Shown here: piece by piece, positions 21,164 through 46,406 of the stretch
How positions within the stretch are numbered: position 1 is the stretch's first letter
How the letters are laid out: each line of letters begins with the position of its first letter
NCBI GenBank assembly: GCA_018645325.1
Contig: JABGOU010000009.1
Coordinates: 32,801-96,800, forward strand
Direction of reading: 5' to 3'
Source: Desulfobacula sp.
Lineage (GTDB): Bacteria; Desulfobacterota; Desulfobacteria; Desulfobacterales; Desulfobacteraceae
Length of the DNA stretch: 64,000 nt
The notes under the pieces: generated by a model
Databases searched by the model: none
Seen by the model: the letters and a program-made list of their open reading frames with translations, nothing else
What the model was told of the DNA's origin: nothing
Program-made: the position numbers and the translations under genes

Positions 21164-21784
21164 TTGATTATAAAGAAACTTGAGGTTGGTCCGATTATGG
21201 CCAATTGTTTTATTTTAGGTTGTGAATCAACAAAAGAAGCTGTTGTTATTGATCCGGGAGATGATTCAGACCGAATCCTGATGGAGCTGGCTAAATCTGA
21301 ATTAAATGTAAAATACCTGATTAACACCCACGGTCATTTTGACCATGTGGGTGCCAATAAAAGAATGAAAGAAGTAACAGGGGCAAAGCTTGCTATTCAT
21401 CCCGAGGATGAACCCATGTTCAAAGAACTTTCACATTCTGCATCAATGTTTGGACTAACGGCCCAGAATTCACCTCCGGCAGATATTTTATTAAAACATG
21501 GGGATGAAATAAGTTTTGGTGAGATTAATTTAAAGGTGATCCACACGCCCGGTCATTCAAAAGGAGGCATTTGCCTTTATACCAAAGGCCACCTTTTTTC
21601 CGGAGATACATTGTTTGCAGGATCCATCGGAAGGACGGATCTTCCAGGGGGTGATTATGATACTTTGATTTCAAGTATAAAGAATAACTTGTTATCCCTG
21701 GATGATAAAACAATTGTATATACGGGTCATGGCCCGGAAACAACATTAGGTGATGAAAGGAGAAGCAATCCTTTCTTGAGATGA
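21164..21784 (+). CDS. Metallo-beta-lactamase hydrolase (glyoxalase II-like)
   Basis: 206 residues. TTG start at 21164 with AGGAG six bases upstream. Metal motif THGHFDHVG, then HTPGHSKGG and FSGDTLFAGSIGRTDLPGG, and a final GHGPETTLGDE. These match the short glyoxalase II/YcbL-type group that hydrolyses thioesters such as S-lactoylglutathione; glutathione use in this lineage is uncertain. Its stop codon overlaps an in-frame ATG (ATGA at 21781) of the DUF1573 reading frame. Confidence 0.88.
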   Translation: MIIKKLEVGPIMANCFILGCESTKEAVVIDPGDDSDRILMELAKSELNVKYLINTHGHFDHVGANKRMKEVTGAKLAIHPEDEPMFKELSHSASMFGLTAQNSPPADILLKHGDEISFGEINLKVIHTPGHSKGGICLYTKGHLFSGDTLFAGSIGRTDLPGGDYDTLISSIKNNLLSLDDKTIVYTGHGPETTLGDERRSNPFLR

Positions 21785-21933
21785 ATGACCTTTTGATGGA
21801 TGGATTGTTAAAACAGCTGCCCTTTGTAAAAGTGGTTCATCAGGAAACTATTGAACTTGATCGATCATTTGAGCAGGTGGCTGCATCATTTGCCAATGAG
21901 TTACTATTAAATGTTATGGGGAAAAAAAGAATT

Positions 21934-22635
21934 ATGAAAAAGAACATCACCCTTATTGCCATCTTAATTGCATTGTTTTTTATGCCCCAGAATGGTCTGG
22001 CCCAACCCAAAATTTTGATTGATATGCCTGTATTTAACTTTGAATTAATTCCAGAGGGAGTTTCCATTGCCCATGAATTTAAAATTAAAAATATTGGGGA
22101 TACACTTTTGCATATTAATGATGTCCTGCCTCCCTGAGGGTGCGACAAGCACTCCTTTGACAGGCAAATTCCTCCGGGTGGGGAAGGTAAAATCAAGCTT
22201 AGTTTTAAAACTGATGGGTATGGCGGAAAGACCATGAAAAAAGTGATTCAGGTCAAGACCGATGATCCCGGGAAAAAAAAATTCCATCTGGTTGTCACAG
22301 GGCCTGTTGAAAAAATTGTGGATATTCTCCCTGGATCTGTTTTTCTTAAAGGTGTTCCAGGTGATACTTTAGAGACGGTAGTCAATATAATTCCTGTTGA
22401 AAAGTATTCGTTTTCAATACTGGGAATGGAGCAAAAGGGTAATACGGGAATTCATCTTAAGCTTATTGAATCAAAAGCGGGTAAGAAATCCTGGCAGGTC
22501 AAGATCAAATGCACATCAGACAAGGCGCAGAATCTGTATGATATAGTGACCCTTAAAACAGACAGCCTGTACAAACCAAAATTGATCATAAGAGTACATG
22601 CCATTTTTATTGAAAAAAAGGCACTGAAATCCTAA
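21934..22635 (+). CDS. DUF1573 exported protein with in-frame TGA read as selenocysteine
   Basis: Two open stretches in one frame are separated only by TGA at 22135-22137. Read through as Sec (codon 68 from the ATG at 21934) they give a 233-residue protein: signal peptide (MKKNITLIAILIALFF), then an Ig-like DUF1573 domain. The family motif PSCGC reads PPUGC here, followed by the expected PPGGEGKIKLSF stretch, so the TGA replaces the first conserved Cys of the CGC motif. A second Ig-like region fills the C-terminus. A weak hairpin with GG in its loop lies at 22156-22168. The frame is also open back to ATG 21781, coupled to the previous gene, but the signal peptide favours 21934. Likely periplasmic; function unknown. 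A nonsense mutation is the alternative. Confidence 0.75.
22135..22168 (+). promoter_or_regulatory. Candidate selenocysteine codon and SECIS-like hairpin (DUF1573 gene)
   Basis: TGA at 22135-22137. Short stem TTTG (22156-22159) / CAAA (22165-22168) around loop ACAGG. The loop GG lies 28-29 bases after the T of TGA, within the range of bacterial SECIS loops. A second, stronger hairpin right after the TGA (GTGC / GCAC, loop GACAA) competes. Weaker than the hdrA and mvhD elements. Confidence 0.45.
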
Positions 22636-22664: not shown

Positions 22665-23297
22665 ATGGATATTTTAAAAATAAAAGCAGTTGTGTTTGAC
22701 TGTGACGGTGTAATGTTTGACACAGCCCTGGCCAACAGGAAATATTATGATGAAGTACTCCAGATATTTGGAAAGCCACGGCTTAATGAAGAACAGTTTA
22801 TTAATATTCATATGATGACTATAAGAGGTGCCATTGAGTATCTTTTCCCGGAAATGGATGACCTTTCAAGTGTATATGACAATCTTAAAAATATTGGATA
22901 TAAAAAATTCATTAAATTCATGAGCATGGAAAAAGGGCTCAAAGAGCTTCTTATAAAGCTCAAAGACAAGGGATATATCAGAGGGATCGCTACCAACCGG
23001 ACTAATACCATGGAAAAGGTATTGGAAGACTATGGTCTGGAAGACTATTTCGAAGTAGTAGTTACGGCTGCAAAAGTTAAAAAACCAAAACCTGATCCTG
23101 AACAATTGCTGTTAATAATGGAAAAATTTGAATTGAAACCGGATGAGATTTTTTTTATCGGGGATTCTGATTATGACCAGCAGGCAGCAGTTCGTGCTAA
23201 GGTAAGATTTGCTGCATTTAAAAACCCAGATCTTAAAGCAGAGTTTTACCTAGAATCAATGGATGATATTGCTGAAATTTTCCAGATAAATCAATAA
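22665..23297 (+). CDS. HAD-superfamily phosphatase (phosphoglycolate phosphatase-like)
   Basis: 210 residues. Motif I FDCDGVMFDT, motif II TNRTNT, the Lys of motif III in AKVKKPKPDP, and motif IV GDSDYDQ; an alpha-helical cap sits between I and II. This is the beta-phosphoglucomutase/phosphoglycolate phosphatase subgroup. The substrate cannot be assigned. It lies between the DUF1573 gene and the sat promoter. Confidence 0.88.
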   Translation: MDILKIKAVVFDCDGVMFDTALANRKYYDEVLQIFGKPRLNEEQFINIHMMTIRGAIEYLFPEMDDLSSVYDNLKNIGYKKFIKFMSMEKGLKELLIKLKDKGYIRGIATNRTNTMEKVLEDYGLEDYFEVVVTAAKVKKPKPDPEQLLLIMEKFELKPDEIFFIGDSDYDQQAAVRAKVRFAAFKNPDLKAEFYLESMDDIAEIFQINQ

Positions 23298-41523: not shown

Positions 41524-44500
41524 ATGACCCAAAATTCAACACCAAAGAAAGATATAGCAGGCTCTGTAATGGTGCTTGGCGGCGGAATTGCAGGAATGCA
41601 GTCTGCCATAGATTTAGCCAACTCCGGCTACTATGTATATCTGGTTGAAAAGTCTTATGCCATTGGTGGTATGATGGCTCGACTGGACAAGACGTTTCCG
41701 ACCAATGACTGTACCATGTGAGTTATCTCACCTAAACTGGTCGAGGTCGGCCGGCATCTGAATATCGAATTGTTAACAAACACGGAATTTCTTGAGCTTG
41801 AAGGGGAAGAAGGGAATTTTACCGCAAAGGTGAAAGAAAATCCAAGATATGTTGATCTTTTAAAATGTACATCTTGCGGAGAATGTACCAAGGTTTGTCC
41901 AGTGGAGACACCCAGTGAACACAATGAGGGTCTTGCACCGCGAAAAGCTATTTTTAAACAATATGAACAGGCCATACCGGGTGGATACGGGATCTCAAAA
42001 CGTTCCACAGCTCCATGCAAGGCCACCTGCCCGGCTCATGTCAGTATTCAGGGTTTTATTGCCTTGATGAACCAGGGAAAGCATGCAGAAGCATTGAAGC
42101 TGTTTAAAGAAGAGCATCCCTTTCCCGGCTCATGTGGCCGTGTCTGCCACCATCCTTGTGAAGCGGTTTGTACAAGGGGTGATGCTGATGAACCTGTAGC
42201 AATCCAATATCTTCACAGGTATCTGGCTGAAATGGATTTTGATGGAGACAATCCATATGTGCCTGAAAAGGCTGAGAAGCGAGATGAGAAAGTGGCCATT
42301 GTCGGGTCAGGCCCTGCAGGTTTGACTGCTGCCTATTATATGGCCCAGAAAGGGTATGGGGTTACCATCTTTGAAAAACTAGGGGTGAAGGGTGGTATGA
42401 TGGCAGTGGGTATTCCTGAGTATAGACTGCCCAAGGCTGAGCTTGGTAAAGAGATTGAAGTGATTGAAAACCTAGGCGTTGAAATTCAAACCGGCGTTGA
42501 ATTTGGTAAAGATGTCACTTTGAAAAGCCTGGAAAAAGACGGCTTTAGCACGCTTTTTATGGCGACGGGCCTTCATGGTTCCCGGGGATTGGGTGTCAAG
42601 GGTGAAGATATGGATGGTGTCTTGAAATGTACTGATTTCCTCAGAGATGCCGCCCTTGGTAAAGCAGAAAAACTGTCTGGAAAAGTAATGGTTATCGGTG
42701 GTGGCAATGTCGCCGTCGATGTGGCCCTTACTGCTAAAAGACTGGGTTCTGACGATGTGACCATGGTCTGTCTTGAAAAACGAGATGAAATGCCGGCCTG
42801 GGATTATGAGATTGAAGAGGCATTGGAAGAGGGTGTAAAGATTGTCAACAGCCTGGGCCCATTGAGATTCCTTGGTGAGAATGGCAAAGCAAATGAGGTT
42901 GAGTTTCAGGAATGTACCTCTGTCTTTGATGAAAATGGCCGCTTTAGTCCTAAGTATGATGATTGCAAACTGACATCCTATGAAACAGATACCATCATTG
43001 TGGCCATAGGTCAGATGGGCGAGCTTGGATATGCAGACAAGGAAGGGATTGCATTAACCCCGCCTGGTGGATTCAAAGCAGATCCTGTCACATTGCAGAC
43101 TCCCATTGAATGGGTTTTTGCCGGTGGCGATGCTTTTTATGGTCCTAAATCCGTTGTTGATGCAATTGCCAGTGGCAAGGATGCTGCTGAAAGTATGCAC
43201 CGATTCATCAATGGTGAGGATCTGGCTGAAGGTCGTGAAAAATCCTGGGATTTTGAAAAACCGGAAATTGAGAATGTACCAAAGCTTGAGCGGGCAAAAC
43301 CTGCCACGATAAGTCTGGATGACAGAGAGGGTAATTTTAAAGAAATAACCATGACTCTTGCACAGGAAGCCATAGATCGAGAAGCTGCCCGTTGTCTTTC
43401 CTGTGGAATCTGTTCTGAATGTTATCAATGTGTGGATGCTTGTCTTGCAGGCGCAATTAATCATGAAGAACAACCCAGAGTCAGAGATTTGAATGTGGGA
43501 TCCGTCATAATGACAACCGGTGCCACAACCTTTGATCCTTCCGGTCTTGATGACACATATATGTACAAGAGATCTCAGAATGTAATGACATCTCTTGAAT
43601 TTGAACGACTTTTGAGCGCAGGAGGCCCGACCATGGGGCACCTTGTAAGGCCTTCCGATGAAAAGGAGCCCCAGAAAATTGCCTGGCTCCAATGCATTGG
43701 CTCTAGAGATACGAATCGATGCGGGAATGGATATTGTTCATCTGTCTGCTGTATGTATGCCATCAAAGACGCCATGATCGCCAAAGAGCATTCAGAACTT
43801 GATCTGGATGCAGCCATATTTAACATGGATATAAGAACCTTTGGCAAAGACTATGAAAAATATTATGACAGGGCAAAAAATGATGAAGGCGTAAGATTTG
43901 TAAAATCCAGGATTCATTCTGTGGTTGAAGAGCCGGGGACTGACAACCTGATCCTTAATTATGCAGATGAAGAAGGCACAATGCACAAGGAAGTTTTTGA
44001 CATGGTCATCCTTTCTGTCGGTCTTGTTGTACCGGAGGAGAGCGTGGCTCTTGCCGGGAGAATCGGCGTTGAACTGGATAAGTATAACTTTGTAAAAACA
44101 TCTACGTTCAATCCTTTATTGAGTTCCCGCCCGGGTGTATATGTTTCAGGATCTTTCCAGGGGCCCAAGGATATTGCTTCTTCTGTAACAGAGGCAAGCG
44201 GTTCTGCGTGTGCTGCCGGCGTGAAACTTGCCGGGGCCCGTCATACAGTGACCAAGACCGTCGTCATGCCGGATGAAAGAGATGTGTTAGGTGAAGAGCC
44301 GAGAATAGGGGTGTTTATCTGCAAATGCGGTATTAATATAGCCGGTGTTATCGATGTTGAGGCTGTTGAAAATTATACCAAAACACTCCCCAATGTGGTT
44401 TATACCGGAGAAAATCTGTTTACCTGTTCCCAGGATACCCAGGTATCCATCAAGGAACTGATTGATGAGCACAATTTGAATCGTGTTGTTGTGGCATCCT

Positions 44501-45969
44501 GTACGCCGAAAACCCATGAAGGAATTTTTATGGATACTCTGGAAGAAGCCGGATTAAATAAGTATCTGTTTGAAATGGCCAATATCAGAAATCAGGGTTC
44601 CTGGATGCATTTTCACGAACCTGAAAAAGCCACTAAAAAGGCCAAGGATCTGGTTAGAATGGCTGTGGCCAGGGTGGCAACCTTAGGACCATTGCATGAC
44701 AAACGTATCTCAGTGATTGATAAGGCATTGGTGATCGGAGGCGGTGTAGCGGGTATGACGGCTGCAAAAGGCCTGGCAGATCAAGGCTATGAGGTCACCA
44801 TAGTTGAAAAGGAAGAACATCTTGGCGGACTGGGAAAAAGGCTTTATCATACCATTGAAGGCGATGATATTCAGGCTTATTTGAAAGATCTCATCACGGC
44901 GGTTGAAAATCATGAGAAGATAGAAATTCTTAAGCAGGCTCTGGTAGTAGAATTTGGAGGATATAAAGGTAATTTTGAGACAACTATCCTTGCCGGCACA
45001 TCAATGGAAGAAAGAAAGATTGACCATGGTGTCCTGATTGTGGCAACGGGTGCAACAGAATACCAGCCCACAGAATTCCTTAATAATGAAAGCGAATCAG
45101 TGGTTACTCAACTGGAACTTGCCGACATGATTGAGGAAAAGAAGACTCATGAACTGGGTCGTGTCATAATGATTCAATGCGTTGGATCAAGAAATGAGGA
45201 TAATCCGAATTGCTCACGAATCTGTTGCCAGAATGCAGTCAAGAATGCCATTGCGCTCAAAGAGCAGAATGCTGATACAGATGTATTCATTCTTTACAGA
45301 GATATGAGAATGTACGCCATGCTTGAAGAGTTTTATACAAAAGCAAGAAATATGGGTGTGATTTTTTCTCGGTTTGACCCTGAAAATCAACCTGAAGTAG
45401 CACTGGGTGAAAACGGCAAAATGGCGGTGACTTTTACCGATCATGTTCTGGGACGTAAAATTGAAGCAAGTGCAGATCTGGTCGTATTGAGTGCAGGTGT
45501 CAAGGCGGCGGATACAGAAGAGCTTGCAACCATTATAAAAACCGGCAGAAATGCTGAAGGTTTTTTTATGGAAGCCCATGTGAAGCTGAGACCGGTTGAG
45601 GCGCCCACTGAAGGTATATTTATCTGTGGTACTGCCCACGGTCCAAAATTGATTACTGAAACCATAACACAGGCCATGGCTGCAGCATCCAGGGCAACCA
45701 CATTCCTTTCCCAGGAATCGTTGACCCTTTCGTCCGTAACGGCAGAGGTAAACCAGGATCATTGTGCATCCTGTCTTGTCTGTGTCAGATCCTGTCCATA
45801 TCATGTGCCGGTAATAAACGACATGGGTGTCAGTTATATAGACCCTGCGCTGTGCCAGGGATGTGGTATCTGTGCATCTGAGTGTCCTGCTAAAACAATA
45901 AAACTAAACTGGTATGAAGATAATCAGTTGCTCAGCAAGGTCGAAGCTTTGCTGGAGGGGGTAATATGA
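41524..45969 (+). CDS. hdrA: HdrA-type multi-domain flavoprotein, selenocysteine-containing
   Basis: 1481 residues when TGA at 41719-41721 (codon 66) is read as Sec. Order: HdrA FAD domain (VMVLGGGIAGMQSA; TFPTNDCTMU where the family has NDCSxC, then ISPKLVEVGRH); ferredoxin-type CTSCGECTKVC (about 116); a GltD/NfnB-like insertion (Cys-rich N-part, FAD VAIVGSGPAGLTAA about 258, NAD(P) VMVIGGGNVAVDVA about 388); CLSCGICSECYQC (about 623) and the rest of HdrA; a second HdrA (FICKCGINIAG about 929, FAD ALVIGGGVAGMTAA about 1068) without the NDCxxC motif; two C-terminal [4Fe-4S] motifs (about 1411, 1444). Three FAD sites and many clusters fit flavin-based electron bifurcation/confurcation. Overlaps mvhD by 4 bases. 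Confidence 0.93.
41719..41754 (+). promoter_or_regulatory. Selenocysteine codon and SECIS-like hairpin in hdrA
   Basis: TGA at 41719-41721. Fifteen bases later a 6-bp stem CTGGTC (41737-41742) / GGCCGG (41749-41754, with G-U pairs) presents a 6-base loop GAGGTC. The GG lies 26-27 bases after the T of TGA, and the loop resembles the AGGTCT loop of the E. coli fdhF SECIS. Confidence 0.8.
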
Positions 45970-46406
45970 CAAAAGAGTTTGAGCCGGTGATTCTGGCATT
46001 TTGCTGTAATTTCTGAGGGTATTCAGCTGCGGACCTGGCAGGTTCCATGAGATTGAAAATCCCGGCAAATTTTAGAATTGTTCGTGTCCCCTGTACGGGA
46101 AAGGTAGATATTATTCATGTTTTGAGAGCCTTTGAAAAAGGAGCTGACGGGGTATATGTTGTCGGTTGTATGGAAGGGGATTGTCATTACAATGAGGGGA
46201 ATTTTAGAGCCAGAAAGCGAATCGAGCAGGCAGCTATGATTCTGGACAAGGTGGGAGTGGGAGGCGAGCGTGTGAAAATGTTTAATCTTTCATCCGGCGA
46301 AGGCCCTTTATTCGCACAGTATTCCATTGAAATGAATAATAAAATAATAGAACTTGGGCCCAGTCCCATCAGGGTGGCAAAACAGAACAAAAAAAATGCA
46401 GCTTAG
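45966..46406 (+). CDS. mvhD: MvhD-type electron-transfer subunit, selenocysteine-containing
   Basis: 146 residues with TGA at 46014-46016 read as Sec (codon 17). The start ATG overlaps the hdrA stop (ATGA). The family motif FCCNWC reads FCCNFU, followed by SAADLAG, VPCTGKVD and VVGCMEGDCHY, which supply the other [2Fe-2S] ligands and complete the MvhD signature. In known complexes MvhD passes electrons between a hydrogenase or dehydrogenase and HdrA. Without read-through only a truncated protein from an internal ATG (46047) would be made, losing the cluster ligands. Confidence 0.93.
46014..46046 (+). promoter_or_regulatory. Selenocysteine codon and SECIS-like hairpin in mvhD
   Basis: TGA at 46014-46016. 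Stem GGACCT (46031-46036) / AGGTTCC (46040-46046) with one bulged T, closing a short GGC loop; GG is 23-24 bases after the T of TGA. A bulged U near the loop is also a feature of the E. coli fdhF element. Confidence 0.75.

Follow-up and report, generated by a model that had tools for sequence, protein, structure and literature searches.

The window analysed here is a stretch of 64,000 nucleotides from a Desulfobacula sp. genome (contig JABGOU010000009.1). On its forward strand, the frame 21781-22635 is interrupted only once, by a TGA at 22135-22137, as the first-pass annotation had stated, and the read-through translation contains NDVLPPUGCDKHSFDRQIPPGGEGKIKLSF. Based on the frame, the TGA and the profile matches, we assign a selenocysteine-containing DUF1573 (OS_HP2) gene to 21934..22635 (+ strand, 233 codons plus stop, MKKNITLIAILIALFFMPQNGLA). 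Its start at ATG 21934 carries an N-terminal signal peptide, read by eye, and in relatives the DUF1573 gene has its start at nearly the same position. The TGA at 22135..22137 (+) would encode the U of a U-G-C motif, the Cys partner of which is the TGC codon at 22141..22143 (+). The three codons from 22135 to 22143 (TGA-GGG-TGC) fit the [UC]-G-C pattern demanded by the family model NF041425. Gene callers that lack selenocysteine rules cut this gene in two, as the plain list of open reading frames shows.

The start proposed earlier, at 21781, did not hold up. By blastn against L075, L032, L074 and L034, the bases from 21781 to about 21894 align with the 5' end of pabBC (aminodeoxychorismate synthase/lyase), and those 3' of them align with the stretch directly before the DUF1573 gene in relatives, which rules out 21781 and moves the start to about 21934. 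This pabBC remnant (21781..21894, +, about 114 bases) shares the reading frame of the DUF1573 gene. Relatives have a complete pabBC of about 760 codons, with Chorismate_bind and Aminotran_4 domains in the one copy scanned, between the DUF1573 gene and an MBL-fold hydrolase gene, and the latter is found in the window at 21164..21784 (+; Pfam Lactamase_B, 127.8 bits), its assignment as the upstream neighbor following from gene order. A search of the window's genome for Chorismate_bind found a single gene, a 497-codon frame elsewhere. The genome is 90% complete, so that the loss of pabBC could reflect either a real deletion or an assembly misjoin.

Family identity continues without a break across the TGA, as first proposed. 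With the TGA read as Cys, the Pfam DUF1573 profile (PF07610) spans it, matching residues 81-174 at 56.7 bits against a cut-off of 26.1, and the TGA falls exactly on the first Cys of the conserved CGC, also as proposed. Read in the same way, the protein scores 117.2 bits against NCBIfam NF041425, the OS_HP2 family (seleno)protein model, for which the curated cut-off is 100. The first-pass annotation was aware of no earlier account of a DUF1573 protein with selenocysteine, and this claim has to be withdrawn because, besides passing that cut-off, the family is already tabulated: as OS_HP2, pfam07610, with motif UxC in a table of 2008 (PMC2398784), and as a DUF1573 domain-containing protein with motif UGC in tables of 2022 (PMC9312934) and 2026 (PMC13188914). 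Both later tables cite Zhang and Gladyshev 2007, on an Olavius algarvensis symbiont, for the DUF1573 UGC entry. A selenoprotein family new to science is thereby ruled out, and the locus carries little weight as a discovery, since the family stood in a selenoprotein table by 2008 under a name from 2007. The sequence was read correctly at first pass; the family was already known. We hold with high confidence that the window protein belongs to OS_HP2, the Sec form of DUF1573, as an ordinary member: it shares the domain, over the curated cut-off, the U-G-C motif and, going by the title of the 2007 paper, a deltaproteobacterial source, and nothing distinguishes it from the family. The entries in PMC2398784, PMC9312934 and PMC13188914 give no function.

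The identity of the TGA is best judged from the same codon in relatives. A protein search covered 58 genomes, the window's own and 57 relatives, and matched in 54, the match in one of these (G018) being confined to the pabBC-like portion of the query. At the 67 loci of the order, window included, the column holds 59 TGA and 8 Cys codons; leaving out the window, 58/66 are TGA and 8/66 TGC or TGT, more than chance would produce. These 66 loci include second copies from some genomes and a few weak matches (e.g. L069, L070, L072, L073), and stand apart from one further match (L071) with an unreadable column. Within the genus, every orthologue found has the TGA (22/22); among the 25 other genus genomes, G006, G018 and G020 yielded no orthologue of the window copy. 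A phylum-wide search, with matches in 119 of 297 genomes and 35 over the cut-off, contributed 24 more loci, 21 of them with TGA; these are no fair sample of the phylum because they are among the best-scoring matches, many lower-scoring ones having no internal stop. Pairs of Cys and TGA codons at this column are thus common in homologues: of the 91 loci read, window included, 80 have TGA, 8 TGC and 3 TGT (excluding the duplicates L001, L032-L035, L074, L075, L088-L092 and L107, and L071). The pattern that would have counted against selenocysteine, close relatives all with Cys and the window alone with TGA under relaxed constraint, is not what the genus orthologues display.

A quick tree built from 81 sequences requires at least 6 changes between Sec and Cys, of which at least 3 fall on starred branches, in an undirected count. 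Alignment A3 comprises 81 of 87 rows, without L006, L016, L059, L066, L095 and L113, and the 87 had already excluded L002 (the window again), L020, L022, L073 and L103. Apart from the two positions of U-G-C, no Cys/Sec column in it reaches 90% conservation. By the residue that follows U-G-C, the TGA loci form two classes: D in 26/80, the class of the window, and a residue other than D, mostly T, S or A, in 53/80, which we call the sister class.

Selection on the coding sequence continues past the TGA. When the window gene is paired with close relatives, for which 8 of the 22 orthologues from the genus served, dN/dS 3' of the TGA is 0.125-0.234 in 8/8 pairs; 5' of it the range is 0.082-0.293 in 7 pairs, and the eighth pair is saturated. 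The genome also encodes components of the decoding machinery, which the first-pass annotation had argued must exist: tRNA-Sec (75.5 bits, cut-off 47), SelB (337.8, cut-off 242.25) and SelA (582.9, cut-off 267.9) all score above their cut-offs.

A hairpin 3' of the TGA is supported by covariation in the sister class. In alignment A1, which holds 51 of the 53 sister-class TGA loci (L103, identical there to L097, and L060, with an extra codon, being omitted), a hairpin with its loop starting 17 nt beyond the UGA has 78.4% of 255 cells paired vs 63.7% in shuffles, 46 cells changed on both sides vs 18.1, and a covariation score of 0.460 vs 0.238; each of these values was matched by 0/500 shuffles and by no slid register. 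Two of the five measures were unexceptional, namely how many pairs show a double change (5; 97/500 shuffles as high) and how many further pair types occur (12; 62/500 as high), both tied by a +3 slide. RNAalifold on the sister class predicted 3 pairs and did not recover the covarying hairpin. In the 11 Cys forms, 16/55 cells of this hairpin are paired.

In the window's class, the candidate bacterial SECIS is another hairpin, which in the window lies at 22169..22185 (+; TTCCTC-CGGGT-GGGGAA), with its loop 37 nt from the UGA and G second in the loop. In alignment A2, made up of 23 of the 26 window-class loci (without L020, identical there to L019, and L025 and L067, off register or divergent), all 6 pairs are kept in 23/23 rows with zero compensatory changes, and the loop is CGGGN at the same 37 nt past the UGA. 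The hairpin employs the codons CCG and GGG in all 23 sequences, while across 15 window genes CCG makes up 15% of 135 Pro codons and GGG 16% of 289 Gly codons. The 23 sequences are related, so this combination of conservation and uncommon codons is only suggestive. A weak second hairpin, around CCTTTGACAGG (22152..22166, +), sits near the position of the sister-class covarying hairpin, has about 0 kcal/mol alone, and in the window's class (columns 18-32) has a count nearly equalled by a +1 slide. Which of the hairpins serves as SECIS in the window copy we can only infer.

We also scanned downstream of the TGA with the bacterial SECIS rules of PMC13188914 (stem 4-16 bp, loop 3-9 nt, G in the first two loop positions, spacing 16-37 nt, energy at or below -7.5 kcal/mol), as given in that source, coded anew and for perfect stems only. 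The rules are passed by 20/26 loci of the window's class, 13/54 of the other class, 0/11 Cys forms and 22/3335 background codons. The window copy fails this check on energy (-4.8 vs the limit of -7.5 kcal/mol), and shuffled sequences are just as stable as the 62 nt that start at 22129 (z -0.07). According to PMC13188914, a subset of selenoprotein genes falls outside the bSECIS model. Given how strong the other evidence for selenocysteine is, we take the window element to be a SECIS that is weaker or non-standard.

The weakness of this hairpin relative to most of its class, together with the loss of the adjoining pabBC except its 5' end, could be read as signs that the TGA really ends translation or is a sequencing error, and that the gene is broken or yields a product of 67 residues. 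This reading is very improbable, and we regard it as ruled out by the TGA column, with TGA at 80 of 91 loci and a Cys codon at the remainder, and by selection after the TGA in 8 of 8 pairs. The proposal that selenocysteine replaces the first Cys of CGC is instead well supported, because the TGA/Cys pairs, the selection past the TGA, the presence of SelA, SelB and tRNA-Sec and the covarying sister-class hairpin all agree, and decoding of TGA 22135 as selenocysteine is near certain. The Cys form of DUF1573 (PF07610) has the same domain and, as a rule, C-G-C at the same position; it differs in having a Cys codon instead of TGA and in not keeping the sister-class hairpin.

A conserved neighbor lies downstream. 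A HAD-superfamily hydrolase gene (22665..23297, +; Pfam HAD_2, 120.1 bits) follows the DUF1573 gene, and by tblastn a HAD gene is found 3' of DUF1573, on the same strand and within 320 bases, in 46/52 copies examined from the order. The sample consists of 45 of the 67 order loci, the other 22 being available with 300-base flanks only, and 7 further order loci; the queries were the window HAD protein and HAD frames chosen by motif from the same neighborhoods. The gene is present in 29/30 of the loci L002-L031, window included (the sequence of L006 ends 5 bases past the match), in 13/15 further order copies (absent in L133 and L137), and in 4/7 order copies from the phylum search, where L091 ends 192 bases after, L100 has none and L102 has a weak match 1037 bases off. 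Two of the 6 misses are at contig ends. Clustering of open reading frames had found the gene in 18/23 neighborhoods; we prefer the tblastn count, since the frame caller had masked some HAD genes that tblastn recovered. Outside the order, 0/19 copies have the gene downstream, two of these with less than 1000 bases of downstream sequence. Among the Cys forms of the order, the neighborhood was examined in two, and the HAD gene is present in L124 and not in L137. Upstream neighbors vary, with pabBC in 7 neighborhoods and, in 8, a gene identified by eye as PriA-like, and because they differ, the DUF1573-HAD pair has been kept across rearrangement. The HAD protein could be assigned to no named equivalog, the best being PpaX at 78.6 bits against a cut-off of 218. 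A functional tie between the selenoprotein and the HAD hydrolase may be suspected from this pairing, which, together with the high share of Sec forms in the order (58 of the 66 other loci), offers a handle on function.

The protein is most likely an exported selenol-thiol redox protein, a reading to which we give somewhat better than even chances. Redox or metal chemistry in the periplasm, as suggested at first pass, is a putative role. In the proposed mechanism, SelB with Sec-tRNA would decode the UGA at 22135, aided by the hairpin just 3' of it, and the signal peptide would direct export of the product, which would have an Ig-like domain with a loop formed by Sec-Gly-Cys. Its selenol and the thiol close by could then cycle via a selenenylsulfide, reducing an oxidised thiol, a peroxide or something similar outside the cytoplasm.

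In UxxC thioredoxin-like selenoproteins, Sec is likewise paired with a near Cys. Several of these are included in the table of PMC2398784. The window protein shares with them a Sec with a Cys close by; it differs in having one residue between the two (U-G-C) and in matching an Ig-like domain and not the thioredoxin fold that defines that group. Pfam finds nothing in it beyond DUF1573 and a HYDIN/CFA65-like Ig domain. A profile search against solved structures gave 2qsv_A (E 0.0011), the aligned part of which does not contain a CGC motif. Troponin and the other weak matches of that search were taken as chance.

The main alternative is a selenoprotein whose U-G-C pair serves to bind a metal or metalloid ion, with no redox catalysis. 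The single short Cys/Sec pair, with no further conserved Cys, and the lack of a thioredoxin-like match in Pfam would suit such a protein. On the other side stand the recurring neighbors that could be named (the HAD hydrolase, the MBL hydrolase and pabBC) and those named by eye only (PriA and ATP sulfurylase), and we consider it possible, at a probability well short of that of the redox function. Doubtful, in our view, is a bolder form of the redox proposal, in which an exported beta-sandwich of Ig-like type, unrelated to thioredoxins, would carry a catalytic Sec-Gly-Cys center and act in one pathway with the HAD hydrolase encoded next to it throughout the order; if true, the listed family would contain a selenoenzyme of a new kind. 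Ranked last, and unlikely, is a mainly structural role, in which the Sec/Cys pair would staple an Ig-like loop and the protein would act by binding partners. The domain matches, DUF1573 and HYDIN/CFA65-like Ig, are in keeping with it, and to our knowledge Ig-like folds are as a rule not enzymes, but selenocysteine is costly where a plain disulfide would suffice, and the TGA has been kept at most other loci of the order (58/66).

A few observations concern related copies and the rest of the window. The search found one DUF1573 gene only in the window's genome (90% complete), and a scan of viral contigs gave no confirmed relative. Divergent extra Sec-DUF1573 copies of a U-G-C-T type (L057, L058, L059, L063, L064 and L066) are spread over five genomes of the genus, with two of the copies in G020. 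The first-pass annotation had noted two other selenoproteins in the window, and both are present. The FlpD/MvhD gene at 45966-46403 (Pfam FlpD, 157.7 bits) has a TGA at 46014 (CCNFU), for which the strict bSECIS scan gave no match; FlpD/MvhD is a listed selenoprotein family (PMC13188914). The frame at 41524-45966 encodes a protein of 1481 aa with a TGA at 41719 in C-T-M-U that passes the bSECIS scan, and Pfam finds FAD/NAD and 4Fe-4S domains in it, with an oxidoreductase stretch at 256-551. From its motif, we take this protein to be HdrA-like.
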